A stretch of DNA of 51,090 nucleotides from a virus, in IMG/VR virus record IMGVR_UViG_3300034104_005609, positions 1 through 51,090 of that record; one strand, 5' to 3'. Of the stretch, positions 1,643 to 35,241 are shown piece by piece (the first letter of the stretch is position 1; each line of letters begins with the position of its first letter). The notes beneath the pieces are model-generated. The model was not told where the DNA came from. It made no database searches and worked only from the letters and a program-made list of their open reading frames with translations. Position numbers and translations under genes: made by a program.

Positions 1643-2560
1643 ATGGAAATCATATTTGGCTATGCTTGTATCAGCGAACTTAATCCGCAAATCAAAACAG
1701 GCTCTACATCAACTTTAACATATATCAATAAGCTACCAGAGTCGCAGCGTGGAGACTATCTTCGTGTTAAGGCTCGTGCCAATCTTCAATCTCTTAAACT
1801 TTTACTGCACAAAAATGCACAAGCTAATATGTTGGCTTATCGCTTGCCCGACAGCCTTTTGCCCATGGCAGATCTAGGCTACTATGACGTACTAGAGTTC
1901 GCCCAAGATTTATGGGAGTGCGGCCAAATAGCTAATCAATATGGCATGTATTTGAGCTTTCACCCCAGCCAATTCTTCGTTCTCAATTCAGCAACTCCCC
2001 ATGTCGTAGAAAATACAGTTAAAAACTTTAATATATATGGCGAAATCCTCACACTGATGCAACTTGTTAACACTCCTACTCTTTTGACTCATGTCGGAGC
2101 CCGATCCACCTACCCCACAAACCAACTAGCATGTGAAGCTTTTTGCCGCCACTATTCCCTGCTCAACCCACAAGCCCAATCTTTTCTCGCAGTAGAGAAT
2201 GACCAGAGTGCCCATTCAATCGACTCCTGCCTTATCATTAGTAATCTTATCGGAATACCAGTCGTTATAGATACAGCTCACTGGGCTTACAAGCCTACTC
2301 CAGATATGACATTTGATACAGCCATCAGATTAGCTCTTGCTACATGGGCTCCAAACAGAACACCTAAGACTCACATCAGCTCAGAACTTGCAGGATCTCC
2401 TCGTCATGCCCATGCAGACTTCATACTTCGTGACGATGCAGTAGCTCTACACAATGCACTAGCTAAATTCAATCCCGAACAAGTTATAGTAATGGTCGAA
2501 GCAAAAAGGAAAGATCGAGCTGTGCAAGCACTACCATTCTATTCTACTTTAAGCTCTTGA
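1643..2560 (+). CDS. uvsE: UV-damage endonuclease (UvdE/UvsE family)
   Basis: UvsE nicks DNA 5' of UV photoproducts and other lesions, starting an alternative excision repair path. The 305-residue protein is full length for the bacterial family. It shows the TIM-barrel landmarks: FGYACIS at the N-terminus, MYLSFHPSQFFVLNS in the middle, LLTHVGA, a metal-binding LAVENDQ, VVIDTAHW and MVEAKRKD near the end. I chose the ATG at 1643, ten bases after AGAAGGAGG, over an upstream frame extension that would run through the promoter. The gene has its own promoter. Its codons are visibly richer in C (CCC, GCC, CTC) than its neighbours', which suggests recent acquisition. Confidence 0.93.
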   Translation: MEIIFGYACISELNPQIKTGSTSTLTYINKLPESQRGDYLRVKARANLQSLKLLLHKNAQANMLAYRLPDSLLPMADLGYYDVLEFAQDLWECGQIANQYGMYLSFHPSQFFVLNSATPHVVENTVKNFNIYGEILTLMQLVNTPTLLTHVGARSTYPTNQLACEAFCRHYSLLNPQAQSFLAVENDQSAHSIDSCLIISNLIGIPVVIDTAHWAYKPTPDMTFDTAIRLALATWAPNRTPKTHISSELAGSPRHAHADFILRDDAVALHNALAKFNPEQVIVMVEAKRKDRAVQALPFYSTLSS

Positions 2561-2585
2561 TAAACTAGTAAATTCATGTTATAAT
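2557..2585 (+). promoter_or_regulatory. Sigma-A type promoter, TTGATA-N17-TATAAT
   Basis: The -35 box (2557-2562) overlaps the uvsE stop codon, and the -10 box is at 2580-2585 with a 17-base spacer and TGT extended -10. It leads the run of genes from 2617 to thyA. Confidence 0.85.
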
Positions 2586-2616
2586 TATTATATAATATTA
2601 AATAGGAGGTTTTATT

Positions 2617-3588
2617 ATGAGAGCTTATGAATATATTGAAATGTGTAAAAGGCAAGATGAGCTTTCTCATTTGATAATAGGAGCTATTGTTGACGTATAT
2701 GATATTGAAGAAATAGATATGTTAAAAGAATTATTTCAACAAGTTTATGATACCAAGATTGCAGATATGGCTTCATTAAAAGAATCAATAAAAGCTATTT
2801 CCAATCCTTACAGAATAATGTTTGCTTTATTTCTATGGTCTATTTTTGCCGATAGACTAGACCACTATTTAGAAAATTTCTTGCCATTAAGAGAAGATAG
2901 AAAAAATTCAATTCTTTCTGAAATTCTTGGCTCTATTAATATAAGAACATATCGAAGACTAAAAGACAGATTTACTCTAAAATTTTTAGATTGTCAACTA
3001 GATATTCTTCAAGAAAGAACATCTTTATTCTTATTAAATCGAGAGATTAATTCTCTAACAGATATATTCTTAAAAGTTTATTGTGATAAAAGATTTGATT
3101 CAGATAGTTCTACATTCCAATCATTTATAAATAATGCTGTTCATGGTAGTATTTTTAGAGAGCTTGTTTTAACCCAGCTAGATGTACAATTAATAAATAA
3201 TCTATATCTAGGTACGAAAGGCAATCTTCATATTGATATTGATGTCATTAATAAGTTCAAAATTTCAGATATTCAAGATGTTCTTGACCTTGGTAAATAC
3301 TATCGCATATCAGATATAACATTAACTAAAAATGCAGTATCTAAATTTACAAGTGAAACTCTCGATAAGTATATGAATAGAATTCAAGAAGAGAGTTCTG
3401 TAGGTTTTCGTACTCATACAACTTCAAAGATTATAGAGTTTATAGAGCCCGAAGTTTTAACTGATGAATTGGTTAAAAAATATTATACTAAATTTTTTAG
3501 TGATGCTCGTTCAGTTTTTGTAGAAAGAATTTTAATGCCAAGATATTCTCTTAAAGATATGATAAAATTATTGGAAGGGTGTGCTTAA
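2617..3588 (+). CDS. Unknown mostly helical protein (323 aa)
   Basis: I do not recognise this protein. It is predicted to be largely alpha-helical with many charged residues and has no signal peptide, clear membrane segment or metal motif. The ATG follows ATAGGAGG. It is the first gene of an operon-like run with the two WRSC paralogues, the metallopeptidase and thyA. The downstream ATG lies 1 base after its stop codon, so the two are probably translationally coupled. Its composition is very AT-rich, as in the following genes. Confidence 0.75.
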   Translation: MRAYEYIEMCKRQDELSHLIIGAIVDVYDIEEIDMLKELFQQVYDTKIADMASLKESIKAISNPYRIMFALFLWSIFADRLDHYLENFLPLREDRKNSILSEILGSINIRTYRRLKDRFTLKFLDCQLDILQERTSLFLLNREINSLTDIFLKVYCDKRFDSDSSTFQSFINNAVHGSIFRELVLTQLDVQLINNLYLGTKGNLHIDIDVINKFKISDIQDVLDLGKYYRISDITLTKNAVSKFTSETLDKYMNRIQEESSVGFRTHTTSKIIEFIEPEVLTDELVKKYYTKFFSDARSVFVERILMPRYSLKDMIKLLEGCA

Positions 3589-3589
3589 T

Positions 3590-4681
3590 ATGTTATTGAG
3601 TGAACTTGAGTATAATGTAGAAAATCTTAATAAGATTATTAATATGCTATCCAATGAAAATCAGACGGCTAATATGAGAGGTCATGTAAAAAGATGGAGT
3701 CGTGTAAATAATCATATATTTCAAAAATTCGGACAGCAGTTAAAGATAGAGCGTGAGGTTCAAGGAACTCTTTCAGAAGAACAAATCAGTAAAATTATTT
3801 ATCATGACTTTATCAGAAAAATTGAGAGTGATCCAAAATTTTCATTGGTCACTATATTTTTTCAAGATAATATTGTTACACCAGAAGAAATAGGTCAGAA
3901 TTATCTTAATGAAACACTAACTTTTTTTGGTACTAAATTTAATGCAGGAATGAAGATTTCAAGAATACTTCCTCGATTAGTTCCTAAAAGTGAAAGTGAC
4001 TTTGTACAGGTAGAATATTCAAAGATAGTTCAAAAGTTTTCATTTACTGGCACTGCCGTTCTATCAATAGATCCAGTAGATTATATTACCATGTCAGAGA
4101 ATCAATCTGGTTGGAGATCATGCCATGCTCTCGATGGCGAGTTTCGTACAGGCACACTAGCGTATATGCTAGATTATTGTAGTGTTGTAGGATATGTTAA
4201 AACTAAGGATGTTCCTATTGGTGGTACTTGGTACTCAGATAAGATTTGGAGACAAATGGTTTTAATTGGAGAAGACTATGCAGTTCAAAGTCGCCAATAT
4301 CCTAATAGTAATTCTTTTAATGCAGGAACTATATCTCAAATGTTAATAGATATCTTTGGTGAAAATTATTCTGTTCATAAAAAGAATGTTAGTGATTTGG
4401 GAGAAGTAGTAGAAAATATTGAAACTGACAATGGCACTAGATTATGGTATAATGATATATATGAAAACTCATTTAGCAGGGGAAGAATAGTAATGCCTGA
4501 TAAATATGAGAGCATAGGAGATCTTTACAATAGTGAATCATTCCAACATTTATATGTAGGAGTAGAAAAAATTCCATGTGCTTGTGGTTGTAGTAGAGAT
4601 TTAGAATCAGCAGAATGGATCTACTATGAAAGCTCAGAAGATGATGAAGACTATTGGGATGAAGAATTAGAGGAGGAATAG
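3590..4681 (+). CDS. WRSC-motif protein A, unknown function
   Basis: This 363-residue protein is a paralogue of the one at 5604-6911. They share GMKISR/K-(I/V)L, then a core of DY-x2-MS-x-N-x3-WRSC-x2-LDGE(F/Y)-x2-GTL. In this copy WRSC is at residues 175-178. The invariant Cys and Trp suggest a catalytic or metal-binding core, but I know no function for it. The C-terminus has a short CACGC zinc-knuckle-like cluster and a very acidic tail (EDDEDYWDEELEEE). The ATG at 3590 is preferred to the GTG at 3581 because the GGAAGGG site is about ten bases before it. It is followed two bases later by the metallopeptidase gene. Confidence 0.72.
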   Translation: MLLSELEYNVENLNKIINMLSNENQTANMRGHVKRWSRVNNHIFQKFGQQLKIEREVQGTLSEEQISKIIYHDFIRKIESDPKFSLVTIFFQDNIVTPEEIGQNYLNETLTFFGTKFNAGMKISRILPRLVPKSESDFVQVEYSKIVQKFSFTGTAVLSIDPVDYITMSENQSGWRSCHALDGEFRTGTLAYMLDYCSVVGYVKTKDVPIGGTWYSDKIWRQMVLIGEDYAVQSRQYPNSNSFNAGTISQMLIDIFGENYSVHKKNVSDLGEVVENIETDNGTRLWYNDIYENSFSRGRIVMPDKYESIGDLYNSESFQHLYVGVEKIPCACGCSRDLESAEWIYYESSEDDEDYWDEELEEE

Positions 4682-4683
4682 TA

Positions 4684-5607
4684 ATGTTAAGACAATCAGA
4701 AATAGAATTATTACAAACACTATTTACTCTTGAGCAAGAACAGCTTCATGATTTTTTGTATGATTTTTTATTAGATTATTATACAGAAGAAGAGATAACA
4801 GAAGATGATGTTCACTATCTATATGCTCAGGGTGATATTCCAGTTTTATTAGTGGCTCATCTAGACACAGTTCATAAAGTTAAACCCAAGTTAGACAATA
4901 TATTTCATGATGCAAAAAAGCATAGAATGTGGTCGCCTGTAGGTATTGGTGCCGATGATCGCTGTGGTGTATTTGCTATTGTAATGTTAGTGATGCAGGG
5001 ATATAGACCTCATATAGCGTTCACTTGGAATGAAGAGATTGGTGGTATAGGTGCTCGCAAGATGATTGTAGATTTTATGCCAAAGCAACAGATTAATTTT
5101 GCTATTCAGTTTGACCGCAAAGGCTCCCAAGAAGCTGTATACTATTATTTGGATAGTCTTGCTTTCGAGAACTATATTAACGGCTTTGGATTCAAAACGC
5201 ATCTAGGAACTTATACTGATATCTGTGAGATATGTCCAGATTGGGGCTTTGCAGGAGTCAATCTTTCAGCAGGATATAACTTTGAGCATAGTACCAGCGA
5301 GATAGTCATGGTCGATGTTCTAGTTGACACAATGACAAAAGTAGCTAGTATACTAGATGACCAAAAAGCTAATCCTCAATTCTTTGAATATATGGAAGCT
5401 CCAAAGCACTATACTCCAAGAGCTCAAAGTGAGTGGAATAGTCGTGATGAGTATTATGGGATGGATCCATCAAGCTACTCAGACTATTGTATAGCTTGCG
5501 GAAAGAGTACTGCATGGTACCGCATGTCAGATAGACCCGAGTTTGCCGAGATGTGTATAGATTGCGCAGAAGATATTTTTCCAAGTAAAGGAGCTGTATT
5601 AACATGA
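4684..5607 (+). CDS. M20/M28/M42-like zinc metallopeptidase with C-terminal zinc ribbon
   Basis: Enzymes of this clan remove amino acids from peptides or hydrolyse amides with two zinc ions. The 307-residue protein keeps the full ligand layout: H59-x-D61 (AHLDT), D91/D92 (GADDR), the catalytic E117-E118 (WNEEIGG), D144 (FDRKG) and H202 (EHST). Residues from about 270 add a CxxC...CxxC zinc ribbon (CIACG, CIDCA) not usual in the family. It sits between two paralogous WRSC genes, overlaps the second by an ATGA, and so is probably made with them. It has no signal peptide, so it should act in the cytoplasm. The substrate is unknown. Confidence 0.82.
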   Translation: MLRQSEIELLQTLFTLEQEQLHDFLYDFLLDYYTEEEITEDDVHYLYAQGDIPVLLVAHLDTVHKVKPKLDNIFHDAKKHRMWSPVGIGADDRCGVFAIVMLVMQGYRPHIAFTWNEEIGGIGARKMIVDFMPKQQINFAIQFDRKGSQEAVYYYLDSLAFENYINGFGFKTHLGTYTDICEICPDWGFAGVNLSAGYNFEHSTSEIVMVDVLVDTMTKVASILDDQKANPQFFEYMEAPKHYTPRAQSEWNSRDEYYGMDPSSYSDYCIACGKSTAWYRMSDRPEFAEMCIDCAEDIFPSKGAVLT

Positions 5608-6911
5608 TAGGTCTCGAACAAATACAACAAGATTTCAGAGATACGATAGGAGGGTATATATCCTCTCCTGTTCTTTTTTCCTTTGATAAATATCAGAAGA
5701 ATAAGGCTTCTCTATTTGAAGACCTAGGCAATCAATATATTTATACAAGACAGAATATAGTGGTAGAAATAAAAGAAGATTCAAAGTTAAAAATGATGCG
5801 TGAATTTATTGATAAGATTAGTGGATTTTATAATAAGAAGGTTTTATATGACTTTTTAGAAGTCAATGGAGTAGATGGCTTCTTTGAAAACAAGATTACA
5901 AAAACCTTTTATATGCTATTAAGTATACATGATGAAGTCTATTCATTTAGTGATGCTACCATTGATGGCATAAAAAGCTTGAAGCTTCAGCAGGGTATGA
6001 AGATTTCCAAAGTATTAAAGTATTTCATTAAAGAAGATTCTGCTCATATGCTATATCACATTCAAACTAAATACTCACAGATTATAAATGGCTCTAGACT
6101 ATCTGGAAATCTATCTCTATCCATTCACCCTCTAGACTATCTTTCAATGTCGCACAACAATGAGAACTGGCGTTCATGTCAGTCGCTAGATGGAGAGTAT
6201 GCCTCTGGTACTTTAAGTTTAATGTGTGACCAAACAACTCTAGTAGCCTATCTGGCTTCGCCAGAACTACAAGAGCTAGACTGGGGTGGGGTTCGATGGA
6301 ACTCTAAAAAATGGAGGGTTCTAGTACATATAGATAAAACAAGAAATCGAATAGTATTATCGAAGCACTATCCATTTTATTCATATGAGCTTGAAACTCA
6401 ACTAGTAGAAATGATTAAAGAAATATATCCACAATTTAAGGATTCTGAAATTCAAAATCTTGAAAACTCAGACAGCGTAATTTCAAAAGTACGAGATGCT
6501 CAGAACTATAATGACATAGCTAGATCAAATGGTTTTATTACTAGAACTCTTTCAACTGATAGCGAATCTGAGAAGATTTTAATAGGTACAGTAGTTCCCT
6601 GTTTACATTGTGGTAAGAATCCAATAGAAGACGCTATGTCTTTTGCTTGTTATCACTGTATGCCGATAGAAACTAGCTTCTGTGATAGATGTGAAACAAA
6701 TGGTCATCGTGAGGAAGATATGTATTGGGTTTCACAAGAAGATAGAAGCATTTGTTCTGATTGTTTTAATTATGCATATGATATTTGTGATAGTTGTAGC
6801 TATGTTATACCTCAAGAAGAGATGTCTTCTGGAGATATGCGTATTTGTAAAGAATGTGAAGAAAATCATAGGAGGCAAAATGAACAAAGTCGATCAACTG
6901 TTTCAGGATAA
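5604..6911 (+). CDS. WRSC-motif protein B with zinc-finger tail, unknown function
   Basis: A 435-residue paralogue of the protein at 3590-4681. It shares the DY-x2-MS-x-N-x3-WRSC-x2-LDGEY-x2-GTL core (W189-C192 here) and the GMKIS segment before it. From about residue 330 it carries at least four CxxC pairs and nearby histidines (CLHCG, CYHC, CDRC, CSDC, CDSC, CKEC), giving several zinc ribbons or RING-like fingers. Paralogue A has only a small cysteine cluster. The ATG overlaps the stop of the peptidase gene. Its end overlaps the thyA start by 32 bases. The zinc fingers suggest binding to nucleic acid or protein; function is unknown. Confidence 0.75.
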   Translation: MIGLEQIQQDFRDTIGGYISSPVLFSFDKYQKNKASLFEDLGNQYIYTRQNIVVEIKEDSKLKMMREFIDKISGFYNKKVLYDFLEVNGVDGFFENKITKTFYMLLSIHDEVYSFSDATIDGIKSLKLQQGMKISKVLKYFIKEDSAHMLYHIQTKYSQIINGSRLSGNLSLSIHPLDYLSMSHNNENWRSCQSLDGEYASGTLSLMCDQTTLVAYLASPELQELDWGGVRWNSKKWRVLVHIDKTRNRIVLSKHYPFYSYELETQLVEMIKEIYPQFKDSEIQNLENSDSVISKVRDAQNYNDIARSNGFITRTLSTDSESEKILIGTVVPCLHCGKNPIEDAMSFACYHCMPIETSFCDRCETNGHREEDMYWVSQEDRSICSDCFNYAYDICDSCSYVIPQEEMSSGDMRICKECEENHRRQNEQSRSTVSG

Positions 6912-7704
6912 TATTAAGACTATTTTAAGGGTGGGGTCTTGGGATAAAAATCCACGACCCGTATGGCCTGATGGCACCGTAGCACATAGTAGATTTATAA
7001 CTCAAGTACATGAAACATATGACCTAGCAGCTGGAGAATTTCCTCTAACATCACTGCGTAAAATTGCTTGGAAAAGTGCTATCAAAGAAATGCTATGGAT
7101 TTATCAAGACCAATCTAACGACATAGATTTACTGAAGTCAAAGTATGGAATCTCATGGTGGGATGAGTGGGAAAGCCTTCAACACCCCAGAACTATTGGT
7201 TTGAGATATGGCTACACAGTAAAAAAGTTTAATCAAATTGATAACCTAATCAAAGAGATTAAGGCCAACCCAGATTCACGCAGACTAATTATGACACTAT
7301 GGGATTGGACTGATTTATATGCAAGTGATGGATTATATCCTTGTGCCTATGAAACGCTGTGGTCTATATCAGATAATAAATTAAACGTGACTTTGATACA
7401 AAGATCCAGCGACTATCTTGCGGCTGGACATATTAATAAGATTCAATATGTGGCTCTTCAAATGATGGTAGCTGCAGAGTGTGGATTAGAGTTAGGAAAG
7501 TTTACTCATTTTGTTAATAACCTTCATATCTATGATAGGCATTTAGCCTACGCAGAACAGCTTGCAGACGTTCAAACTGACGTGGGAATACCAAAGTTAA
7601 TCTTAAATAAAAAACCTTTCTATGAGGTCAATATTGATGATTTTGAGCTTCTAGGATATGAGCCTGTTAATCAAGAGCCTGTTAAATTAGAGATAGCAAT
7701 CTAA
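6880..7704 (+). CDS. thyA: Thymidylate synthase ThyA
   Basis: ThyA methylates dUMP to dTMP with methylene-tetrahydrofolate. The 274-residue protein has the substrate-binding arginine pair region (DSRRLIM), the catalytic Cys155 (PCAYET), the QRSSD phosphate-binding motif, Asn186 (HINKIQY) and HIYDRH. Asn at this place reads uracil; dCMP hydroxymethylases have Asp, so this should act on dUMP. The PCxYET and INKIQY forms resemble Bacillus and Clostridium ThyA. The ATG at 6880 follows AGGAGG; frame extensions upstream lie inside the previous gene. A dUMP hydroxymethylase is a less likely alternative. With dUTPase and RNR it supplies dTTP. Confidence 0.93.
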   Translation: MNKVDQLFQDNIKTILRVGSWDKNPRPVWPDGTVAHSRFITQVHETYDLAAGEFPLTSLRKIAWKSAIKEMLWIYQDQSNDIDLLKSKYGISWWDEWESLQHPRTIGLRYGYTVKKFNQIDNLIKEIKANPDSRRLIMTLWDWTDLYASDGLYPCAYETLWSISDNKLNVTLIQRSSDYLAAGHINKIQYVALQMMVAAECGLELGKFTHFVNNLHIYDRHLAYAEQLADVQTDVGIPKLILNKKPFYEVNIDDFELLGYEPVNQEPVKLEIAI

Positions 7705-7728
7705 AGCCGTGAGACGGCTTCATTTTTC
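7704..7728 (+). terminator. Rho-independent terminator after thyA
   Basis: AAGCCGT and ACGGCTT form a seven-pair stem with a GAG loop (7704-7720), followed by CATTTTTCC. It overlaps the last base of thyA and ends the 2617-7704 operon. Confidence 0.85.
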
Positions 7729-7802
7729 CTATACATGGTAAAATTACAAGTCCTAATATATATATCGAAATTTGAATAAAATTTTTTCCTAAAATAGGGG
7801 GT

Positions 7803-7840
7803 GGTCATTCTAAAAGAACTGACCTCTCTTTGTTTTTATT
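7803..7840 (+). terminator. Hairpin with U-rich tail in the leader of the tail-fibre gene
   Basis: GGTCA-TTC and GAA-C-TGACC form a stem around TAAAA (7803-7824) and are followed by TCTCTTTGTTTTTA. It lies about 40 bases before the fibre gene and 75 bases after the thyA terminator. It looks like a second terminator or an attenuator. The stretch 7729-7800 holds no recognisable promoter. Confidence 0.55.
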
Positions 7841-7880
7841 TAAAGGAGAAAGTCTATTCACGAGGAGATGAAAAGGTCGA

Positions 7881-10130
7881 ATGGCAAATAAGAAATTACA
7901 AATGAAAGAATATAATACATCTAGTGCTGAATGGGACTCACTTCTACCAGTAACAGGTATTGAGTATGTTACTGGCATTAGCTCTAGTATAAGAGATTTT
8001 TTGGGAACACCTAGTAGTGCTAATTTAAGAGCAGCAGTAACAGATGAAACTGGCACAGGAGCGTTAGTATTTGCACAGTCTGCGACACTAACTTATTCAA
8101 ATATAAATTTTGCTACAATTACAGCATCTACGGTTTCTAATTCAACTTTTATAGCTCCAAGTCTAGGAACTGCTACAGCTAATAGTATAAACGCTGTTTC
8201 TTTGTCAGCATCAACCAGTGGATTTACTGTAAGAAACAATACTGCTTCTATTGTTAGAACTGGAACTGGCTCTCTAACTTTTGTTGGTAGCACAGCTAGT
8301 TATACACTAAATAATGGAGGATTTTTATTGGCATCAGATGCAGCACCTAGTGCAAATGAAGGAAAGGTGCTACAGGTAGTTGGAGGAACGCCTTCTTGGG
8401 TATCGGCTGGATCCATTAGTGGATCAGTCGCGATCACGGGCTCACTAGATATTTCTTCAAACTTAGTCGTAAAAGGAACTACTACTCTAACTACTTCATT
8501 AAATGGTGTTGTGCTAGCTTCTTCTGGAGCTATTACTGCAGGCAGTGCAAGTTTAACTAATCAAGTTAGCGGTACGCTTCCTGTTGGTAGGGGTGGGAGT
8601 GGAGCAACAACTTTAACAGGCGTTTTACTTGGAAATGGTACTAGTCCTTTTACAACAGTTACAGCTCCAAGTGGAACTATCGTTGGAACCAGTGATACTC
8701 AAACATTAACAAATAAAACCCTTATTGACGGAACAACTACATTTGCTGATGGCAGTGATAATACTAAGACTATGAAACTTCAATTAGGTTCAATTAGCCC
8801 AGGAGTAGAAGTCGATCTAACTGTTCCGAATCTCAGTGGAGTATTAGCTGTCACTAGTGGGGCTCAAATTTTAACTGATAAAACTTTAAGCACTGGTACA
8901 GTTAGTAGTGGGGTAGTAGTTCAAAAGAGTCCTGTTATAACTTTGGGTGGCGATTTAACTGGAAATGTTACTTTGACCAATCTGGGGAATGGTACTCTAA
9001 CAGCATTAATTGCTGCCAATTCAGTAGCTCTTGGAACTGATACCACAGGTAGTTATGTTGAATCACTTGTTGCTGGATCTGCGATAACACTATCAGGAAA
9101 TAGTGGAGAAGGATCAACACCAACAATAAATAATAATGGAGTTACTTCTTTGGTAGCTGGAACAAATATGGCAGTCAGCACTGGAACGGGTGCAGTCACT
9201 ATCTCAACAATAGCTAATCCGACTTTTAGTGGAACTGTTAACATTGGCACTTTAAATCTAACAAATGCACTCACTGAGGCAGAAGGTGGAACTGGAGAAA
9301 GCACTTATACCTCTGGTCAGATTTTAATTGGTAACAGTAGCAATGGATTAACTAAAGCTTTTATCTCTGGAACTACAAATGAAATTAATGTAACAACTGC
9401 ATCTGGAGCTATAACAATAGGGCTTCCTAATATTGTTAGCGTCACTGGATTAAATGCTAGTGGTAGAATAACAGCTTCATCATTAAATGTCAGCGGATCT
9501 GCAATACTAGGTACGATTGTGGGACCTACTGGATTTTCTGATGGAGATGCAGGTAATCCAGGAATTAATTTTAGTAGTGATACAGATACGGGCATATATC
9601 GCATTGGGACAAATGATATGGGATTTGCCGCTCTTGGAGCACTTAGAGCTTCAGTAAATGTAACTGGTTTTAATGTAGATGGATCATCAAACCTAACTTT
9701 AAACTCTAATATATATGGATTAAATGTAACAGGTGCTCCATACGCAAATCCAAGAATTTTAAGGATAGCTGGAACTGGTGGAGTTGGAACTCCATACACA
9801 GTTGGAACGGATGGATCATCTAGAAGAATTAAAGAAGAAATTCAAAATCTACAATTTGATACTGAGAACTTTTTAAAGTTACAACCAAAAACATATAAAT
9901 TTAAAACTGATATTCAATATAATGGAGCCGCTGCAAAGCCTACAATAGGGTTTATTGCAGAAGAAGCTAAGGAATTAGGACTGGTTCATTTATATCAAGA
10001 AGATTCTGAGGGTATTCCAGACTATTTTGCATATGACAAGTTACCTATCTACTTAATGTCCATAGTAAAACAACAACAAGAACAAATTAAATCACTTACT
10101 GCCCGAATTGAGGCTTTGGAGGGAAATTAA
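7881..10130 (+). CDS. Tail fibre/appendage protein with C-terminal S74 chaperone domain
   Basis: This 749-residue protein is rich in Gly, Ser, Thr and Asn with short beta repeats, including LTNKTL/LTDKTL stretches typical of trimeric phage fibres. Residues from about 646 form a Peptidase_S74 intramolecular chaperone: SSRRIKEEI provides the Ser646-Lys651 pair, followed by LQPKTYKFK and GFIAEEA, and a final coiled coil. In this family the domain assists trimer folding and then cuts itself off before the Ser. The usual SDxxxK is SSxxxK here. It has no sigma-A promoter and leads the lysis genes, which fits late expression. It probably binds the host surface. Confidence 0.88.
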   Translation: MANKKLQMKEYNTSSAEWDSLLPVTGIEYVTGISSSIRDFLGTPSSANLRAAVTDETGTGALVFAQSATLTYSNINFATITASTVSNSTFIAPSLGTATANSINAVSLSASTSGFTVRNNTASIVRTGTGSLTFVGSTASYTLNNGGFLLASDAAPSANEGKVLQVVGGTPSWVSAGSISGSVAITGSLDISSNLVVKGTTTLTTSLNGVVLASSGAITAGSASLTNQVSGTLPVGRGGSGATTLTGVLLGNGTSPFTTVTAPSGTIVGTSDTQTLTNKTLIDGTTTFADGSDNTKTMKLQLGSISPGVEVDLTVPNLSGVLAVTSGAQILTDKTLSTGTVSSGVVVQKSPVITLGGDLTGNVTLTNLGNGTLTALIAANSVALGTDTTGSYVESLVAGSAITLSGNSGEGSTPTINNNGVTSLVAGTNMAVSTGTGAVTISTIANPTFSGTVNIGTLNLTNALTEAEGGTGESTYTSGQILIGNSSNGLTKAFISGTTNEINVTTASGAITIGLPNIVSVTGLNASGRITASSLNVSGSAILGTIVGPTGFSDGDAGNPGINFSSDTDTGIYRIGTNDMGFAALGALRASVNVTGFNVDGSSNLTLNSNIYGLNVTGAPYANPRILRIAGTGGVGTPYTVGTDGSSRRIKEEIQNLQFDTENFLKLQPKTYKFKTDIQYNGAAAKPTIGFIAEEAKELGLVHLYQEDSEGIPDYFAYDKLPIYLMSIVKQQQEQIKSLTARIEALEGN

Positions 10131-12388: not shown

Positions 12389-12665
12389 GATTGATGTGTT
12401 AAAATCCAAAAATTATATAGTATATCATAAAGATTATAGATTTAAAGAAGACTGGCTTCTTCAGGCTCATTTGTTAAAAGCTCAACGAGCAATGGATTTT
12501 ATCCAGTTTTTAGATGAGAAGTATGGCGATCAGGTTCGTATTATAAGGGAATCATATGTATGTCCTGTTGAAAAAGTTTATACTGGACCAGCTGGATTCA
12601 AGCTAGAGTTTCTGAATAAAAAAGCAGCAGAAGATTATTGTAGCGTACTAAATGGGTTAGGGTGA
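12378..12665 (+). CDS. Small unknown protein (95 aa)
   Basis: A soluble protein of unknown role, with lengths and layout (short strand, long helix AHLLKAQRAMDFIQFLDEKYG, strand, helix) like a small ferredoxin-type fold. The ATG at 12378 follows AGGAGG by ten bases; a frame extension to 12345 has no such site. Its general pattern resembles the small protein at 910-1197 (a helix ending in DEKYG/KDNYD, then VRI), so the two may be distant relatives. Confidence 0.6.
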   Translation: MAFKIDVLKSKNYIVYHKDYRFKEDWLLQAHLLKAQRAMDFIQFLDEKYGDQVRIIRESYVCPVEKVYTGPAGFKLEFLNKKAAEDYCSVLNGLG

Positions 12666-12670
12666 GGATA

Positions 12671-13105
12671 GTGTCAAAAACAATTGTTTTAGTTACTGGT
12701 GGATTTGATCCATTACACTCTGGTCATATAGCCTATTTTAATTCAGCCAAGAGACTAGGAGACTTACTCGTAGTTGGGCTTAATAGTGATGAATGGCTAA
12801 CTAGAAAAAAGGGTAAATCATTTTTATCTTTTTATGAGCGAAATGCAATAATATCTAATCTAAAAATGGTAGATTTGACTATTGGTTTTAATGACGATGA
12901 TGGATCTGCTTGTGAAGCTATACGAGAAACTAGAAATATATTTAGACAAGATAAAATTATTTTTGCTAATGGTGGAGATAGAACTGCGAACAATATTCCC
13001 GAGATGTCTGTCATAGATGAAAGTTTAATATTTGAATTTGGTGTTGGTGGCGAAGATAAAAAGAATAGTTCAAGTTGGATTTTGAAAGAGTGGAGTACTA
13101 GATGA
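12671..13105 (+). CDS. Nucleotidyltransferase of the TagD/RfaE-C type
   Basis: These enzymes join CTP or ATP to a phosphorylated alcohol or sugar (for example glycerol-3-phosphate or heptose-1-phosphate). The 144-residue protein has GGFDPLHSGH (HSGH at residues 16-19), LGDLLVVGLNSD, the KKGKSF phosphate loop and an SSSW segment replacing the ISTT-type motif near the end. The late GGDRTANNIPE and GVGGEDK segments fit the heptose-type branch better than classical TagD. The start is GTG at 12671 or 12662; the site is weak because the previous gene ends here. It opens the sugar cassette. Confidence 0.85.
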   Translation: MSKTIVLVTGGFDPLHSGHIAYFNSAKRLGDLLVVGLNSDEWLTRKKGKSFLSFYERNAIISNLKMVDLTIGFNDDDGSACEAIRETRNIFRQDKIIFANGGDRTANNIPEMSVIDESLIFEFGVGGEDKKNSSSWILKEWSTR

Positions 13106-14516: not shown

Positions 14517-15374
14517 ATGAATATAGCATATCTGGATTTCTGGCCTGGCTTCGACCCTAATTGTAACTGGTTTAATTTATTATTTTCAGATTATTTTGAT
14601 AGTCGAGAAATCAACTTCGGCTCTGATGCAAAAGAGGCTGATGTCATTGTATTCTCCTCGTTTGGCCTTGAGCACCTAGCACAGGGTATCAATAAAAAAG
14701 CTATAAAGATATTTTATACAGGAGAAAATCATAGACCGCCCCATTACTGTGATTTCTCCTTTTCTTTTGACATAGACTCTTATGGAGGGAAAAACTTAAG
14801 ACTTCCAATTTGGTATCTGTATATAAATTGGTGGAATCAACCTGACTTTCCTCATGCGAGAATAACTCCAGAGATGCTGATAAAAAAATGGGATCCAGAT
14901 GAAGTCTTAAATAGAGAAAACTTTTGCTCTATCGTAATTGGAAATCCAGTTAAAAATAGAATTGAAGTAGCTCAAAAGTTAAATCAACTAGCTCCAGTTC
15001 ATGGCTATGGAGCAGTTTTTGGAAATTCTTATTCTGGAGATAAAGTTAAACTCTTAGAACGCTATAAATATAATATATGCTTTGAAAATACAATAGCTGA
15101 TGGATATGTAACAGAAAAATTATTAGAGGCTAAGACTGCTGGTTGTATTCCCATCTATTATGGAGACCGAGAATCTGTTGCTAGAGATTTTAATTATAAA
15201 AGTTTTATAAATTTTTATGATTATAAAAATGCAGAAGAATTATTTGATTACATACTTACACTTGAAAAAAATAAAGAAATGTGCTATAATATATTAAATG
15301 AGAAATTATTTAATGAGAATCCAACACTAGATTTTATTTATAATTTCCTAAACAAGAATAGAATAGGTGGATAG
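14517..15374 (+). CDS. Fucosyltransferase, family GT10-like
   Basis: GT10 enzymes move L-fucose from GDP-fucose onto a sugar acceptor (alpha-1,3/1,4). The 285-residue protein has the family's YTGEN (67-71), a beta segment before it, and the GDP-fucose signature FEN-x5-GYVTEKL (189-203) followed by AGCIPIYYG. Its donor would be made by the gmd and fcl products encoded about 4.5 kb downstream. There is no membrane segment, so it works in the cytoplasm. The ATG is preceded by TTAGGAG. Another deoxy- or heptose donor cannot be excluded. Confidence 0.85.
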   Translation: MNIAYLDFWPGFDPNCNWFNLLFSDYFDSREINFGSDAKEADVIVFSSFGLEHLAQGINKKAIKIFYTGENHRPPHYCDFSFSFDIDSYGGKNLRLPIWYLYINWWNQPDFPHARITPEMLIKKWDPDEVLNRENFCSIVIGNPVKNRIEVAQKLNQLAPVHGYGAVFGNSYSGDKVKLLERYKYNICFENTIADGYVTEKLLEAKTAGCIPIYYGDRESVARDFNYKSFINFYDYKNAEELFDYILTLEKNKEMCYNILNEKLFNENPTLDFIYNFLNKNRIGG

Positions 15375-15377
15375 ATT

Positions 15378-16091
15378 ATGATTTGTGTATTAACTCATCA
15401 GGGGCTTGGAGATCATATTATTTGTAACGGGTTGATTAGGAGTCTTCTAGAAAAGCATGATTCAATCGTGTTATTTGTAAAAGAAAATATTTTTCTTAGC
15501 GTTCAAAGAATGTATGACAATGAATCAAGGATATTTTGTTTTCCAATGTTAAAGTCCGCAGGAGAAGAAGACTACTTTTCTTTTTTTACAAAAAATAAAA
15601 ATACAATGAAGATTGGTTTTTCCAAGTATTGGGAATTAGTGCATAAGTCTTTAGAAATAACAGAGGAATTTTTAGAGCAAAAATTTGACTATAATTTTTA
15701 TAAGCTGGCAGATATAAATTTTGAAAACAGATGGAAAAAATTTAGTTTTCAAAGAAGTTATGAAGATGAAAATAGAGTATTTAAGAAGTTAAACCCAGAT
15801 AATGAACCATATATATTTGTTCATGATGATATTGCTAGAGGATTTGCATTAAATCCTAGTAATCCAAATAATTATAAAATTATAAAAAACGATCCCAGTG
15901 AATTAATTTTTTCAATGATTTCTATACTAGAAAATGCAGAAGAAATACACTGTATGGAAAGTTCATTTAATGCATTAATTGAATGCTTACCAACTATAAA
16001 AGATAATAAATTATTTTATCATTCAAAAGTTAGGAATTATCCCTATTGGCTAATTTCAACTACTAAAAGAAACTGGAGTATAATAGATTGA
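15378..16091 (+). CDS. Putative GT9-like glycosyltransferase
   Basis: A 237-residue protein starting with MICVLTHQGLGDHIICNGLIRSL. That GLGDHI strand-turn-helix resembles the N-terminal Rossmann unit of GT-B enzymes of the heptosyltransferase type. The second half (YIFVHDDIARGF, then AEEIHCMESSFNALIE) fits the donor-binding half in a shortened form. It is shorter than classical GT9 proteins (over 300 residues), so it could be a minimal or divergent member. The gene lies in the coupled sugar run. Confidence 0.55.
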   Translation: MICVLTHQGLGDHIICNGLIRSLLEKHDSIVLFVKENIFLSVQRMYDNESRIFCFPMLKSAGEEDYFSFFTKNKNTMKIGFSKYWELVHKSLEITEEFLEQKFDYNFYKLADINFENRWKKFSFQRSYEDENRVFKKLNPDNEPYIFVHDDIARGFALNPSNPNNYKIIKNDPSELIFSMISILENAEEIHCMESSFNALIECLPTIKDNKLFYHSKVRNYPYWLISTTKRNWSIID

Positions 16092-16092
16092 T

Positions 16093-17604
16093 ATGAATAA
16101 AATTATTGTTCAAGCTGGAGGGAAAGGTAGTAGATTAGAAAAGCATACCTTTAATAAGCCAAAAGCATTAGTCTCAGTAAATGGAAAGCCAATATTATTT
16201 CACTTGTTTGACAAATTTCCAGACTCAGAATTTATAATTATATCAGACTATAAGCATGAGGTATTTAAAAGGTACCTCAAAAAATATGCGAAAGTAAAAT
16301 TTAATATAATTAAAACAAATGAGTCTGGTACTTGTTCTGGGATAGAAGACTCACTATTTTTTATAGAAGAAGATGAGCCTTTCGTTTTGATATGGTCTGA
16401 TTTAATTCTAAGCGATATAGAGCTACCAAAGGAAGTTAGTACTAATTTCATAGGAATTTCTCAGGACTTTAATTGTAGGTGGTCTTATATAGAAAAATCT
16501 CTAATAGAGACACCTTCTATCAATCAAGGAGTAGCTGGATTTTTTATATTTAAGAATAAGTATGAGTTGAATTTAGTTCCAAGATCTGGGGAGTTTGTTA
16601 GATGGTTAAAGGAAAAAAGAAAGTCTTTTGTTGAAATACCTTTGTTCAGTACAAAAGAATTTGGACTTAGGAAAGAATATGAAGATAATGAAATAAAAAA
16701 TAAAAAAAGCAGACCTTTTAATAGGGTTATATTTACAGATACAATAGTTGAAAAAGTTCCACTAGATAAAACTGGCATTGATCTTGCTAAAAAAGAAAAA
16801 AATTGGTATAATTTTGTTATTAGAAATAACTATTCAAATATACCAAAAGTATATTCTTTTGATCCATTTCAAATAGAGCGTCTAGAATCTATTAGTTTAG
16901 TAGATAATAATATTTCTTATGAGAATAAATCTACTATATTAAAAAATATAGTAAAGGCCATCAAAGACTTGCATAGTTTAGTTGAAGAAGAAAGAGTGGA
17001 TGAACGTTCAGTTTATAAAAACTACATTGAAAAAACATATGAAAGAGTTTTAATCGTTCAAGATTTAATTCCCTTTATTGAGAATGAGTTTATAAAAATA
17101 AATGGTAAAAAATGCAGAAATATTTTTAAGTCATTTGATTTAATTAAACTAAATTATAAAGACTTTATTCCAAATAAATTTAATTTAATTCATGGAGATA
17201 CAACCTTTTCAAATGTAATTATAGATAATAATTTTAATACTTTTTTAATAGATCCTCGTGGATATTTTGGAGAAACATCTTTATTTGGAGATGTTGACTA
17301 TGATTGGGCTAAATTATACTATTCAATAAAAGGAAATTATGACCAATTTAATTCTAATAATTTTGAATTAAAAATATTAGATAATGAAGTAGAGCTATCT
17401 ATAGACAGTAGTGGCTGGGAAGAAATGGAAGATTTATTTTTTGATTTAATAGGACAAGATAAAAAAATGAAAATATTATTTTTACATTTTTTAATTTGGC
17501 TATCTTTAACAAGTTATACTTCAGATAACTATGATGCTATATGTGGCGCTTTTTATAAGGGGATATATGAATATGAAAGATATTTTTCAGAGTCAAATAA
17601 GTAG
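16093..17604 (+). CDS. Fused sugar nucleotidyltransferase and APH-type kinase
   Basis: The N-terminal part (about 1-210) is an NTP_transferase domain: QAGGKGSRLE with GGKGSR at 9-14, then NKPKALVSVNGKPI and WSDLILSD, the last being the metal aspartate region. The C-terminal part (about 220-503) is an aminoglycoside-phosphotransferase/choline-kinase fold, with the catalytic HGD at 367-369 (HGDTTFSN) and the metal-binding IDPRG (Asp387), then GDVDYDWAKLYYS. A single protein could thus phosphorylate a sugar and then activate it with a nucleotide. The next gene overlaps its end by 38 bases. Substrate and nucleotide are unknown. Confidence 0.85.
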   Translation: MNKIIVQAGGKGSRLEKHTFNKPKALVSVNGKPILFHLFDKFPDSEFIIISDYKHEVFKRYLKKYAKVKFNIIKTNESGTCSGIEDSLFFIEEDEPFVLIWSDLILSDIELPKEVSTNFIGISQDFNCRWSYIEKSLIETPSINQGVAGFFIFKNKYELNLVPRSGEFVRWLKEKRKSFVEIPLFSTKEFGLRKEYEDNEIKNKKSRPFNRVIFTDTIVEKVPLDKTGIDLAKKEKNWYNFVIRNNYSNIPKVYSFDPFQIERLESISLVDNNISYENKSTILKNIVKAIKDLHSLVEEERVDERSVYKNYIEKTYERVLIVQDLIPFIENEFIKINGKKCRNIFKSFDLIKLNYKDFIPNKFNLIHGDTTFSNVIIDNNFNTFLIDPRGYFGETSLFGDVDYDWAKLYYSIKGNYDQFNSNNFELKILDNEVELSIDSSGWEEMEDLFFDLIGQDKKMKILFLHFLIWLSLTSYTSDNYDAICGAFYKGIYEYERYFSESNK

Positions 17605-18163
17605 TATGACAGGGGTAATTGATAGTATTGATTATTTAAAATTTGATAGTTTAATCTTAGATTGTGTTAATGCTATAAAAGATAATAAGTCTATAATAGC
17701 GACAGGGCTAGGTAAAAATGAATCTATATGCGAAAAGTTTATTGGAACCCTAACATCGATCGGTATATCTTCTTATTTTTTAAACACAAACTCTGCTGTA
17801 CATGGAGATCTTGGTAGTATTAAAAATGGAGATGTCGTTTTAATGTTAACAAAAAGTGGTGAAACAATAGAGTCGGTTTACTTATATCATTTCTTAAAAA
17901 AAAGAAATATTAAAATTTGGCTACTCAGTTTTAATGAAAGTAGCACTCTTTCTAGCTTAATAAATGATAAGATTATAATGAATTTAGATTCTGAAGGAGA
18001 TAGGTGGAATTTAATACCTAATAATTCTAGTATAAGTTTTTTGTTAGTTTTACAAGGATTGGCTATGAGATTACTAGATGATTTAGATATTTCAATAGAT
18101 ATCTTTAGAGGAAATCACCCTGGTGGGCATATAGGAAAAATTTTAGATATGGGGTTAGATTGA
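17567..18163 (+). CDS. SIS-domain sugar isomerase, arabinose-5-phosphate isomerase-like
   Basis: KdsD/KpsF-type enzymes interconvert D-ribulose-5-phosphate and D-arabinose-5-phosphate. The 198-residue protein has the family's GLGKNES, HGDLGSIKNGD (His79), SGETIES (Ser97), and the C-terminal HPGGHIGK (184-191). It stops there, so the two CBS domains of KdsD are missing, as in shorter members. ATG at 17567 or 17573 follows AAGGGG; a start at 17531 lacks a site. Its neighbours are a sugar kinase-nucleotidyltransferase and a HAD phosphatase. A GmhA-like heptose isomerase is less likely because of the HPGG motif. Confidence 0.83.
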   Translation: MNMKDIFQSQISSMTGVIDSIDYLKFDSLILDCVNAIKDNKSIIATGLGKNESICEKFIGTLTSIGISSYFLNTNSAVHGDLGSIKNGDVVLMLTKSGETIESVYLYHFLKKRNIKIWLLSFNESSTLSSLINDKIIMNLDSEGDRWNLIPNNSSISFLLVLQGLAMRLLDDLDISIDIFRGNHPGGHIGKILDMGLD

Positions 18164-18164
18164 T

Positions 18165-18533
18165 ATGGATAGTATAAAAGTTTCTACATTAAATAAAACT
18201 TGGATTATTGACTTAGATGGAACAGTATTAAAACATGCTGGATACATGAAAGATGGATATGATTCTTTATTACCAGAGGCTAAAAATTTTTTGAATAAAT
18301 TATCTAAAAATGATTTTATAATATTTATAACAGCAAGAAAAGAAAAATATAGAAAAATAACAGAAGAGTTTCTTTCATTAAATAATATTATCTATAGCTT
18401 AATAATTTTTGATGCCCCACTTGGAGAAAGAATTGTTATAAATGACATAAAACCCACTGGACTAAAAACAGCTATTGCCTTGAACGTAGAAAGAGATAGT
18501 GGATTAAAATATAATATAATCGAATGTTTGTAG
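18165..18533 (+). CDS. HAD-superfamily sugar phosphatase-like protein
   Basis: A small (122-residue) HAD protein. Motif I is DLDGT (16-20, nucleophile Asp16 in IIDLDGT), motif II is FITARKEKY, and motif IV is in VINDIKPTG. Similar small HADs occur in capsule gene clusters near sugar kinases and isomerases. It starts two bases after the isomerase stop. By analogy with GmhB it may remove a phosphate from a bisphosphorylated sugar made by the fused kinase; that is an inference. Its cap is minimal. Confidence 0.78.
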   Translation: MDSIKVSTLNKTWIIDLDGTVLKHAGYMKDGYDSLLPEAKNFLNKLSKNDFIIFITARKEKYRKITEEFLSLNNIIYSLIIFDAPLGERIVINDIKPTGLKTAIALNVERDSGLKYNIIECL

Positions 18534-18541
18534 GTGCTATA

Positions 18542-19231
18542 ATGAATATAATTTCAATGAGTGTTTTTGGAAATAATAATAGGTATATAGTGGGAGCTAA
18601 ACGACAAATTGAATTAGCTAAAAAATATTATGACAACTGGACAATAAGATTATATGTTGATAATATTGATAATTTTAAAGATCTTGAAAAAGACATTCAA
18701 TTAGTTGAGGTTAAAAATAATCTTTATGGTGTTTTTTGGAGATTTGAACCTTTGTTTGAAAGTGAAAATAATATAACTATTATTAGAGATTCAGATGATA
18801 GAATATCTCTAAGAGAGTATTTAGCAGTTCAAGAATGGTTAGTTAGTGATAAGCTATTTCATAATATAAAAGATCATGATGCCCACTATGAATATCCTAT
18901 TATGGCTGGCCTTTTTGGATATAAAGGAAAATTTAATAGTAGTACATATGAAATTATGAAACTACATGCTTTACAAAATAAATTTTATTTAAGTGACCAG
19001 TTTTTCTTAAGAGATTTTATTTTTCCACAAGTTATTGACAGCGTGATGCTTCATTCTTTAAATGAAGGCTGGTTTTCTGAGACAAGAAAAAGATTGATAA
19101 ATCCATATTGTTTCTGTGGCAATGGATATGATGAACAAGATATTCCAATATATCCAGCATCTATAAATTCAAAAATTGACTACTCTAAAGACTTAGTTTT
19201 CGACGGTGGAAGATTGACAGATTTATCATAA
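18542..19231 (+). CDS. Putative glycosyltransferase of sugar clusters
   Basis: A 229-residue protein with a GT-A feel: N-terminal SMSVFGNNNRY, the helix GAKRQIELAKKYY, then IIRDSDDRISLRE where DSD is a likely metal site. Further on are MAGLFGYKGK and a segment with SDQFFLRD. Proteins with this RDSD-x2-S-x-RE stretch occur in surface-polysaccharide clusters. The ATG at 18542 is favoured over 18524, which lacks spacing to the GGTG site. It is the last gene before the gmd promoter. Confidence 0.58.
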   Translation: MNIISMSVFGNNNRYIVGAKRQIELAKKYYDNWTIRLYVDNIDNFKDLEKDIQLVEVKNNLYGVFWRFEPLFESENNITIIRDSDDRISLREYLAVQEWLVSDKLFHNIKDHDAHYEYPIMAGLFGYKGKFNSSTYEIMKLHALQNKFYLSDQFFLRDFIFPQVIDSVMLHSLNEGWFSETRKRLINPYCFCGNGYDEQDIPIYPASINSKIDYSKDLVFDGGRLTDLS

Positions 19232-19286: not shown

Positions 19287-20300
19287 ATGAAGAAGGCCCT
19301 AATTACTGGAATAACTGGACAAGATGGTTCTTATCTTGCTGAGCTTCTTTTAGAAAAAGGATATGAAGTTCATGGTATCATTAGAAGATCATCTTCTATA
19401 AATACCAAAAGAATTGACCATTTATATAATAATTCAAACTTGAAACTTCACCATGGCGACTTAACAGACTTTAGTAGTCTGATAAAAACAATACAGGACA
19501 TTCAGCCTCAAGAAATATATAATCTTGGAGCTCAAAGTCATGTTAAAGTTTCTTTTGAAATACCAGAGTACACTGGACAGGTTGATGCGCTAGGACCTCT
19601 TAGAATATTAGAGGCTGTAAGAATTTTAGGACTTGAAAGTCAAGTTCGTATATACCAAGCATCAACGTCAGAACTATTTGGTTTAGTCCAAGAAACTCCA
19701 CAGCGTGAAACAACACCCTTCTATCCACGATCTCCTTATGGAGTTGCAAAAATCTATGGATATTGGATTACAAAAAACTATCGTGAGTCTTATGGAATGT
19801 ATGCATGTACAGGCATTCTTTTTAATCATGAGTCCCCTAGAAGAGGCGAAACATTTGTAACTAGAAAAATTACAATGGGATTAAAAGCAATAGCAGAAGG
19901 TAAACAAGAATGTTTATATTTGGGCAACCTTAATGCTCGACGTGACTGGGGCCATGCTAAAGACTTTGTGGAGGCAATGTGGCTAATGCTGCAGCAGCCA
20001 GAACCAGACGACTTTGTTATAGCCACAGGAGAACAGTACTCTGTAAAAGATTTTATAAATGAAGCAGCTCCTTTTTTTGGAATGAGCATTGAATGGCATG
20101 GTGAAGGCGTTGATGAAGCGGGAGTCGATACACTTACAGGTCGCACAGTAATAAAAGTAAGCTCTAAATATTTTAGACCTGCTGAAGTAGAGTCATTATT
20201 AGGAGATGCTAGTAAAGCTAAGAATATTTTAGGGTGGACTCCAAAACACACTTTTAAAGAATTAGTGAAGGATATGTGTGAAAATGAAGAAGGATTCTAA
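19287..20300 (+). CDS. gmd: GDP-mannose 4,6-dehydratase
   Basis: Gmd turns GDP-D-mannose into GDP-4-keto-6-deoxymannose, the first step to GDP-L-fucose. The 337-residue protein is full length. It has the NADP-binding [32 protein letters not shown], the catalytic [17 protein letters not shown] (Tyr and Lys), [16 protein letters not shown] and the [11 protein letters not shown] segment. A GAGGAGG site precedes the ATG. The fcl gene overlaps its end by 23 bases. A GDP-heptose dehydratase (DmhA-like) is a possible variant. Confidence 0.95.
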
Positions 20301-21210
20301 GATTTATGTTGCTGGGCACAGAGGATTAGTGGGGTCTGCAGTTGTCAGAAAATTAGAGTCTGATGGATATTTTAATATATTAAAAAAAACTAGAGAAGAG
20401 CTAGATCTAACAGATCAATACAAGGTTAGAAAGTTCTTTAATGAAGAAAAGCCAAAGTTTGTATTTCTTGCTGCAGCAAAAGTTGGTGGCATAGGAGCAA
20501 ACTCCAGATTCCAAGCAGACTTTTTAAGAGAGAATATACTAATACAAACTAATATTATTGATAGTGCTTATAGAAATAATTGTAATAAGTTATTATTTTT
20601 AGGATCCTCATGTATATATCCAAAATTTTCAGAGCAACCTATAAAAGAATCTTCTCTGATGTCTGGATTGCTTGAGCCCACAAATTCAGCATATGCTATT
20701 GCTAAAATTGCTGGGATTGAAATGTGTCAGAAATATAATGAACAATATGGTTTTAATGCAATCTCGTTGATGCCAACTAATCTATATGGGATAAATGATA
20801 ACTTTGATATTGATAGTGGGCATGTTTTACCAGCTTTAATTTCAAAGTTTATTTTTGCAAAGAAAAACAATTTAGATAGTGTTAAGTGTTGGGGAACTGG
20901 ATCACCATATAGAGAATTTTTATTTGTAGATGATTTAGCAGATGCTGCTGTATGGGCCATGAATAACTACAATGATTCAGCTATTTTGAATGTTGGAACT
21001 GGAAAAGATATAACAATCAAAGAGCTATCAGAAACCATTAAAAATCTTGTTGGATTCGATGGATCAATTATATGGGACAGCTCTCAACCAGATGGAACTC
21101 CCAGAAAACTTTTAGATGTTTCTAGGATAAATGGATTTGGTTGGAAATATAAAACTGAACTCATCGAAGGAATAAAAAAGACTATAGAGTGGTATAATAA
21201 ATATAATTAA
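20278..21210 (+). CDS. fcl: GDP-L-fucose synthase (epimerase/reductase)
   Basis: Fcl epimerises and reduces GDP-4-keto-6-deoxymannose to GDP-L-fucose. The 310-residue short-chain dehydrogenase has [10 protein letters not shown] (NADP loop), [15 protein letters not shown], the catalytic NSAYAIAK (Tyr-x3-Lys), [20 protein letters not shown] and the [13 protein letters not shown] segment; all are typical. The GTG at 20278 follows AAGGA by six bases and is preferred over the ATG at 20284. It overlaps gmd, so the two are coupled and should make GDP-L-fucose together. Confidence 0.94.
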
Positions 21211-25668: not shown

Positions 25669-25689
25669 ATTACTTAAGAGGTGATTTAT

Positions 25690-34866: not shown

Positions 34867-35241
34867 GTGCAACAAAGTAGTTTTAATACATATGGCAAAC
34901 ACCAAATTGCCGATATCTGGGGATGCGACTCAGATACTATCGATAATTTTGCATTTATGAAAGCTCTATGTGAGCTGGCTGCAAATGCAACTGGAGCAAC
35001 TGTAGTGGATATCATCTTTAAAGATTTCGAGCCACAGGGACTGACTATTCTAGTTCTTCTCGAGGAATCTCATTTAAGTATTCATACTTACCCAGAGTTT
35101 GGATTTATAGCATTTGATTGTTATACATGTTCAAATTATTGTTTTCCAGATCGTGCATTAGATGTTTTTAAACAGATTTTAAAACCTAGCAAGGTTGTTG
35201 AGAGATTTCTTGAGCGAGGTATTCAAGGAGTAATAGAATAA
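34867..35241 (+). CDS. speD: S-adenosylmethionine decarboxylase-family proenzyme
   Basis: SpeD decarboxylates AdoMet to give the aminopropyl donor for spermidine. The 124-residue protein has the self-cleaving EESHLSIHTYPE, with cleavage expected at Glu67-Ser68 to make the pyruvoyl group, plus His73 and FDCYTC (Cys85), the proton donor. Length is that of the short bacterial type (1b). The GTG follows AAGGAGG. No spermidine synthase (speE) gene is nearby. Some SpeD relatives, including phage ones, have been reported to act on arginine or ornithine, so the substrate is not certain. Confidence 0.9.
   Translation: MQQSSFNTYGKHQIADIWGCDSDTIDNFAFMKALCELAANATGATVVDIIFKDFEPQGLTILVLLEESHLSIHTYPEFGFIAFDCYTCSNYCFPDRALDVFKQILKPSKVVERFLERGIQGVIE

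Follow-up and report, generated by a model that had tools for sequence, protein, structure and literature searches.

Arabinose on cytosine was chemically shown in T4-like phages (PMC6024577; PMC13390438), and a small gene cassette of these phages is its proposed source. The DNA of phage RB69 carries arabinose, and two genes of the cassette were proposed to provide the activated sugar, although the pathway could not be drawn (PMC6024577). The adjacent RB69p051 was noted in a later survey to hold a polynucleotide-kinase-type phosphatase domain (PMC8056088). A 2026 paper describes the full arabinose pathway as uncharacterised and its precursor as unclear, and cites newer arabinosylation work (PMC13390438). 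The third gene of the T4-like cassettes matches the PDB entry 9iqw at 7e-45. The title of that entry, which is the depositor's claim, names D-arabinose 1,5-diphosphate phosphatase AfhF of phage HY126 and would be the strongest single pointer to a 1,5-bisphosphate intermediate. Many T4-like annotations call the gene after RB69ORF052c a phosphoheptose isomerase or polynucleotide kinase; it is the HAD phosphatase matching 9iqw, and such genes are found in T4-like loci at L002:5650-6258, L007:4209-4595 and in L012-L015. In phage Thanatos, whose cytosine bears a deoxypentose-like sugar, the related protein TH1_060 is essential for the phage; xylose-1-phosphate with NTPs gave no product, and arabinose-1-phosphate is not among the reported substrates (PMC12838424).

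The GDP-D-glycero-alpha-D-manno-heptose pathway (GmhA, HddA, GmhB, HddC) likewise isomerises a sugar phosphate, phosphorylates C1, removes the terminal phosphate and adds the nucleotide. The locus analysed here differs from it in having a KdsD-type isomerase, an APH-type instead of a GHMP kinase, and a kinase that is fused to the nucleotidyltransferase. NDP-D-arabinose can also arise by salvage of D-arabinose through FKP (fucokinase/GDP-fucose pyrophosphorylase). FKP resembles the present fusion in joining a kinase and a pyrophosphorylase in one protein, but its domains are unrelated and it begins with the free sugar, not with ribulose-5-phosphate.

The three genes and their predicted enzymes

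The window analysed is the whole 51,090-base IMG/VR record IMGVR_UViG_3300034104_005609, a phage fragment; another contig, L005, which comes from the same virus, matches it at 8380 of 8386 bases. The DNA polymerase of the window showed 45% identity to Enterococcus EF1-like phages and 42% to SPbeta, and its RecJ-like protein 38% to SPbeta; these similarities make a Bacillota host likely. The window also encodes a UvdE-type UV endonuclease (1550-2560), an S-adenosylmethionine decarboxylase (34867-35241) and two proteins sharing PHROG 29713 (3581-4681 and 5604-6911), which flank an M28-peptidase-like gene.

The three open reading frames at 16093-17604, 17573-18163 and 18165-18533 are all open and intact, and RBS-like sequence is present ahead of each. 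The sequence-only reading had described them as adjacent genes for a nucleotidyltransferase-kinase fusion, a KdsD-type isomerase and a HAD phosphatase, and this was confirmed by the intact frames, the family matches and the conserved linkage. Its further statement that the genes overlap side by side holds for the fusion and isomerase genes (about 32-38 nt), but the isomerase and HAD genes are separated by 1 base. The GC content of the trio (16093-18533) is 26.4%, against 31-34% for the flanks and 36.5% for the polymerase gene, and this low value would fit recent acquisition.

The fusion protein (16093..17604, +, 503 aa) was assigned by Pfam/NCBIfam and PHROG matches, conserved residues and a structural model. 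Its N-terminus matched PF12804/PF00483, PHROG 4098 matched residues 1-500 at 2e-57, and a tblastn comparison with phage Bp7 gave 1e-29. The nucleotidyltransferase motifs are GGKGSRL..PK and W101/D103, and the kinase motifs are H367-G-D369..S-N374 and I-D387-P-R. Across 167 aligned homologues, G10, R14, K24 and D103 of the nucleotidyltransferase and H367, D369, N374 and D387 of the kinase were invariant. The AlphaFold2 model had a pLDDT of 94, with MurU, HddC, RfbF and LicC nearest to the nucleotidyltransferase domain. This domain alone was matched in the PDB by sequence and among the top 50 Foldseek matches, and no Pfam kinase match was obtained for the window protein itself; the kinase assignment thus comes from the relatives, 30 of 37 fusion-family members matching APH (PF01636), and from the conserved residues. 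These support the prediction of an APH-type kinase in the C-terminal half.

The second gene (17573..18163, +) encodes a KdsD/KpsF-type SIS isomerase of about 196 aa, which has the SIS half only and no C-terminal CBS pair, like the CBS-less isomerase 5uqi. Its longest frame opens at 17531; the start is probably 17567 or 17573 instead, as AAGGGG stands before these positions. The isomerase matched TIGR00393 (7e-24), KdsD (7e-22), PHROG 5670 (1e-28) and the PDB entries 5uqi (7e-18), 3etn and 2xhz; the TIGR00393 score of 85 bits lies below the curated cut-off of 204. The catalytic residues K59, E111, E152 and H193 of E. coli KdsD correspond to K62, E114, E155 and H196 (alignment numbering). All four are kept in the window, phage and cellular isomerases. 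After E155 the window protein reads GDRWNLIPNNSS where KdsD reads ACPLGLAPTSST. Interconversion of ribulose-5-phosphate and arabinose-5-phosphate is the predicted activity, and the exchange with full KdsD described below supports it indirectly.

The third gene (18165..18533, +) encodes a HAD phosphatase of 122 aa, recognised by PF03767 (2e-7), its motif residues and its model. The motifs DLDGT, TAR and INDIKP are present, and D16, D18, T56, R58 and D94 were invariant. The model (pLDDT 90) matched the Pnkp1 phosphatase and 9iqw AfhF in Foldseek. The comparison with AfhF gave E 0.045 and TM 0.47 in Foldseek and 1.8e-5 (probability 78%) in hhalign. The two are of the same superfamily and occupy the same cassette slot, with different subfamily motifs; since they belong to different HAD subfamilies, the substrate of AfhF can be transferred by position only. 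The catalytic residues of the kinase and the phosphatase, on which the sequence-only reading had hinged, are all present, as are those of the other activities, and the folds of the trio proteins are likewise shown by the structure and family matches.

Relatives in phages and bacteria

The fusion protein (about 25% identity) and the isomerase (about 28%) are homologous to proteins of the T4-like cassettes (RB69 ORF055c, ORF53_52c and ORF051c; the Afh set of HY126), which show the same three-gene linkage with a small HAD phosphatase as the third gene. The window differs in the order of its genes (nucleotidyltransferase/kinase, isomerase, HAD, versus isomerase, nucleotidyltransferase/kinase, HAD), in the HAD subfamily, in its neighbours (fucose and glycosyltransferase genes versus 5-hydroxy-dCMP synthase) and in its SPbeta/Enterococcus EF1-like lineage, unlike that of the T4-like carriers.

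A profile scan with one genome per species gave at least 400 cellular relatives of the fusion protein, and the best 80, picked by similarity to the window, were kept as loci; these 80 share 43-49% identity with it. The viral relatives were collected by an alignment-based search, as a protein-only search of viral contigs gave little besides the same virus. Where the flank of a relative reached 1.5 kb or more, a HAD gene lay no farther than 1.5 kb from the fusion gene in 37 of 39 marine or freshwater viruses and in 43 of 58 cellular loci, which is far beyond chance. A single frame encodes both the fusion protein and the isomerase in 11 cellular loci. Conserved active sites and conserved linkage are direct observations in this family. 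A marine virus (L010) carries an APH-like kinase gene followed by a nucleotidyltransferase-HAD fusion, and a separate HAD with a nucleotidyltransferase/kinase fusion (2403-4260 and 6004-8235); these would be alternative arrangements of the three activities. Split transketolase genes adjoin isomerase, nucleotidyltransferase/kinase and HAD genes in three of eight such viral loci (L125:2555-3645), and could raise the pentose-phosphate supply.

The cellular loci are clusters of the surface-polysaccharide type, with glycosyltransferases, sugar epimerases and polysaccharide export genes close by. Those of gut bacteria (L017-L096: Lachnospiraceae, Akkermansia, Selenomonadaceae, Alphaproteobacteria) have the same gene order as the window, a fusion protein of 43-49% identity along its whole length, an isomerase of about 45-52% and a HAD of about 37-52% identity to it, but they are cellular and their neighbouring genes differ. 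Such clusters are the likely source of the window trio, and we know of no product assigned to them. Of the 38 cellular loci with all three genes, 37 have the order nucleotidyltransferase/kinase, isomerase and HAD, as does the window, whereas 35 of 36 phage loci begin with the isomerase, followed by nucleotidyltransferase/kinase and HAD. In the tree the window fusion protein groups with the cellular clade at a modest support of 0.63; as the cellular set was picked by similarity to the window, tree and order support a recent cellular origin without proving it. A 428-aa family without a Pfam match (L076:8550-9836), present in 57 of the 80 cellular loci, has a C-terminus that looks GT9-like by eye and is a candidate transferase or polymer gene.

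The isomerase is absent from 21 of 58 well-flanked cellular loci. A full-length KdsD was found elsewhere in the genome in 15 of 19 genomes without a cluster isomerase and in 4 of 19 with one (Fisher p=0.0009), a comparison among the relatives nearest to the window that is confounded with phylogeny and cell envelope type (mostly Gram-negative versus Gram-positive). The four exceptions comprise three genomes with a shorter SIS protein elsewhere and one with kdsA. The L141 locus has a full KdsD, CBS domains included, immediately after its fusion and HAD genes. These patterns are most simply explained by a cluster that is fed with arabinose-5-phosphate, which either a cluster-encoded isomerase or the cellular KDO pathway supplies, and an envelope-linked pattern is what the arabinose-5-phosphate hypothesis predicts. 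In a Bacillota host without KDO the phage would need its own isomerase, and the window has one.

Neighbouring genes and use of the product

The trio is placed between a GT10 fucosyltransferase (14517..15374, +; PF00852 1e-20, PF18025 1e-15) and the GDP-fucose genes, namely GDP-mannose 4,6-dehydratase, gmd (19287..20300, +; TIGR01472 1e-166, above cut-off), and GDP-L-fucose synthase, fcl (20278..21210, +; NF047922 1e-137). Directly upstream of the trio lies a candidate transferase (15378..16091, +) without a Pfam match, which is related to L001, L133 and L138-L140 (phmmer 1e-36) and appears GT9-like by eye. Directly downstream is a candidate glycosyltransferase with a DSDD motif (18524..19231, +; phmmer 7e-34 to L131, no Pfam match).

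Synechococcus phage S-SRM01 and its freshwater relatives (L001, L119, L130-L140) have gmd, fcl, GT10 and the trio in common with the window, and their modules conserve the genes at 15378 and 18524 together with a homologue of that at 25681. An S74-chaperone gene stands some kilobases upstream in both. The S-SRM01-like HAD is of the same subfamily as that of the window (58% identity), but the gene order begins with the isomerase, followed by nucleotidyltransferase/kinase and HAD, and the nucleotidyltransferase/kinase is just 35% identical, so the two cassettes were probably acquired separately. A co-conserved arabinosyltransferase was sought among the viruses sharing the window transferases, and no single candidate emerged, because these viruses share gmd and fcl too. 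D-arabinose and L-fucose have the same ring stereochemistry. For this reason the GT10 fucosyltransferase itself is a possible arabinosyltransferase.

Proposed pathway, alternatives and significance

It is quite likely that the trio forms an NDP-D-arabinose pathway whose sugar probably goes to a glycan of the virion or the infected cell and not to DNA. The SIS isomerase would convert host ribulose-5-phosphate to arabinose-5-phosphate, and the C-terminal kinase of the fusion protein would phosphorylate C1 to give arabinose-1,5-bisphosphate. The HAD phosphatase would take off the 5-phosphate to leave arabinose-1-phosphate, to which the N-terminal domain of the fusion protein would add the nucleotide. 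NDP-arabinose, with L-fucose from the adjacent gmd and fcl, may then be used by the neighbouring transferases. These four predicted steps are well supported, and the enzyme set and step order proposed earlier are favoured by the KdsD residues, the isomerase swap, L141 and the T4-like homology. The product class NDP-D-arabinose, also suggested in that reading, is favoured by the homology to the T4-like arabinose cassettes, the deposited substrate of AfhF and the swap pattern. From the relatives and genome patterns we infer that arabinose-5-phosphate enters the pathway and that the 1,5-bisphosphate is an intermediate. The absence of product from TH1_060 with xylose-1-phosphate counts against this pathway, in an assay series in which arabinose-1-phosphate is not reported.

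The same chemistry could instead serve to place the sugar on the phage's own DNA, on the model of T4-like phages such as RB69, where a homologous cassette accompanies arabinosylated cytosine (PMC6024577; PMC13390438). A ThyA-family gene (6910-7704), 9 kb upstream of the trio, could be read in this direction, but it keeps the dUMP-type Asn (GHINKIQY) at the position that Asp occupies in T4-like 5-hydroxy-dCMP synthases. No cytosine-hydroxylating or other base-modifying enzyme and no DNA arabinosyltransferase was recognised in the 51-kb record; as this is a fragment, genes for a cytosine hydroxylase or a DNA arabinosyltransferase could be located beyond its ends. Gene order and phylogeny also follow the cellular glycan clusters and not the T4-like cassettes, and the neighbours of the trio are fucose and glycosyltransferase genes. 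DNA decoration is therefore unlikely, and the dUMP-type ThyA together with the lack of a recognised DNA-modifying enzyme favours the likely use in glycan or virion decoration. A different pentose or pentulose (such as ribulose, xylose or a deoxypentose) might be activated if the specificity of the isomerase has drifted, as its departure from KdsD after E155 and the deoxypentose-like sugar of Thanatos, which has a fusion homologue (PMC12838424), could suggest. This appears quite unlikely, since the four KdsD catalytic residues are all kept and both the exchange with housekeeping KdsD and the deposited AfhF substrate indicate arabinose phosphates.

A GDP- or ADP-D-glycero-D-manno-heptose type of NDP-heptose, made from sedoheptulose-7-phosphate, would follow an identical step logic, and the nucleotidyltransferase domain is distantly HddC-like. 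The window further encodes an RfaE-domain-II-like nucleotidyltransferase of 147 aa (12662-13105). In 15 marine viral loci that lack the isomerase, a homologue of this protein forms a fusion with a ManC-type cupin and lies close to the nucleotidyltransferase/kinase and HAD genes. The isomerase, however, is KpsF/KdsD-like and not GmhA-like, and GmhA (TIGR00441) was sought in the record without a match, so that the heptose route was ruled out as first choice. Full KdsD substitutes for the isomerase in L141, as does housekeeping KdsD in the genomes, and the related T4-like cassettes are linked to arabinose; heptose is accordingly a very unlikely product. Conversion of arabinose-5-phosphate to KDO or a KDO-like acid would suit a KdsD-type isomerase, but it is extremely improbable, in agreement with the sequence-only reading. 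The record gave no match to KDO-8-phosphate synthase (TIGR01362), and KDO was rejected for this lack of kdsA; 13 of 19 bacterial genomes with an isomerase-bearing cluster have no KDO-8-phosphate synthase above the family cut-off, and this type of kinase and nucleotidyltransferase has no role in the KDO route.

Arabinose activation in phages is already known. What is new is the setting of the trio, that its genes follow the cellular order, that its phosphatase is of a different subfamily, and that such cassettes probably occur widely in bacteria. We consider it evenly balanced whether the surface-polysaccharide clusters of many gut and aquatic bacteria encode an NDP-D-arabinose pathway that has so far escaped recognition and that phages took up at least twice, T4-like phages for DNA and, independently, this Bacillota phage for an L-fucose/D-arabinose glycan of the virion or host surface. 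As a route to activated D-arabinose, which is a rare sugar donor, the trio would be concrete and open to assay, and it would explain families annotated as hypothetical, glycosyltransferase or phosphoheptose isomerase in hundreds of phage genomes. The predicted substrate of TH1_060-type proteins would be arabinose-1-phosphate and not xylose-1-phosphate. The findings also suggest that the T4-like DNA-arabinosylation cassettes and the capsule-type clusters of bacteria have a shared origin, and that the surface glycans of gut bacteria may commonly contain D-arabinose that has been overlooked.
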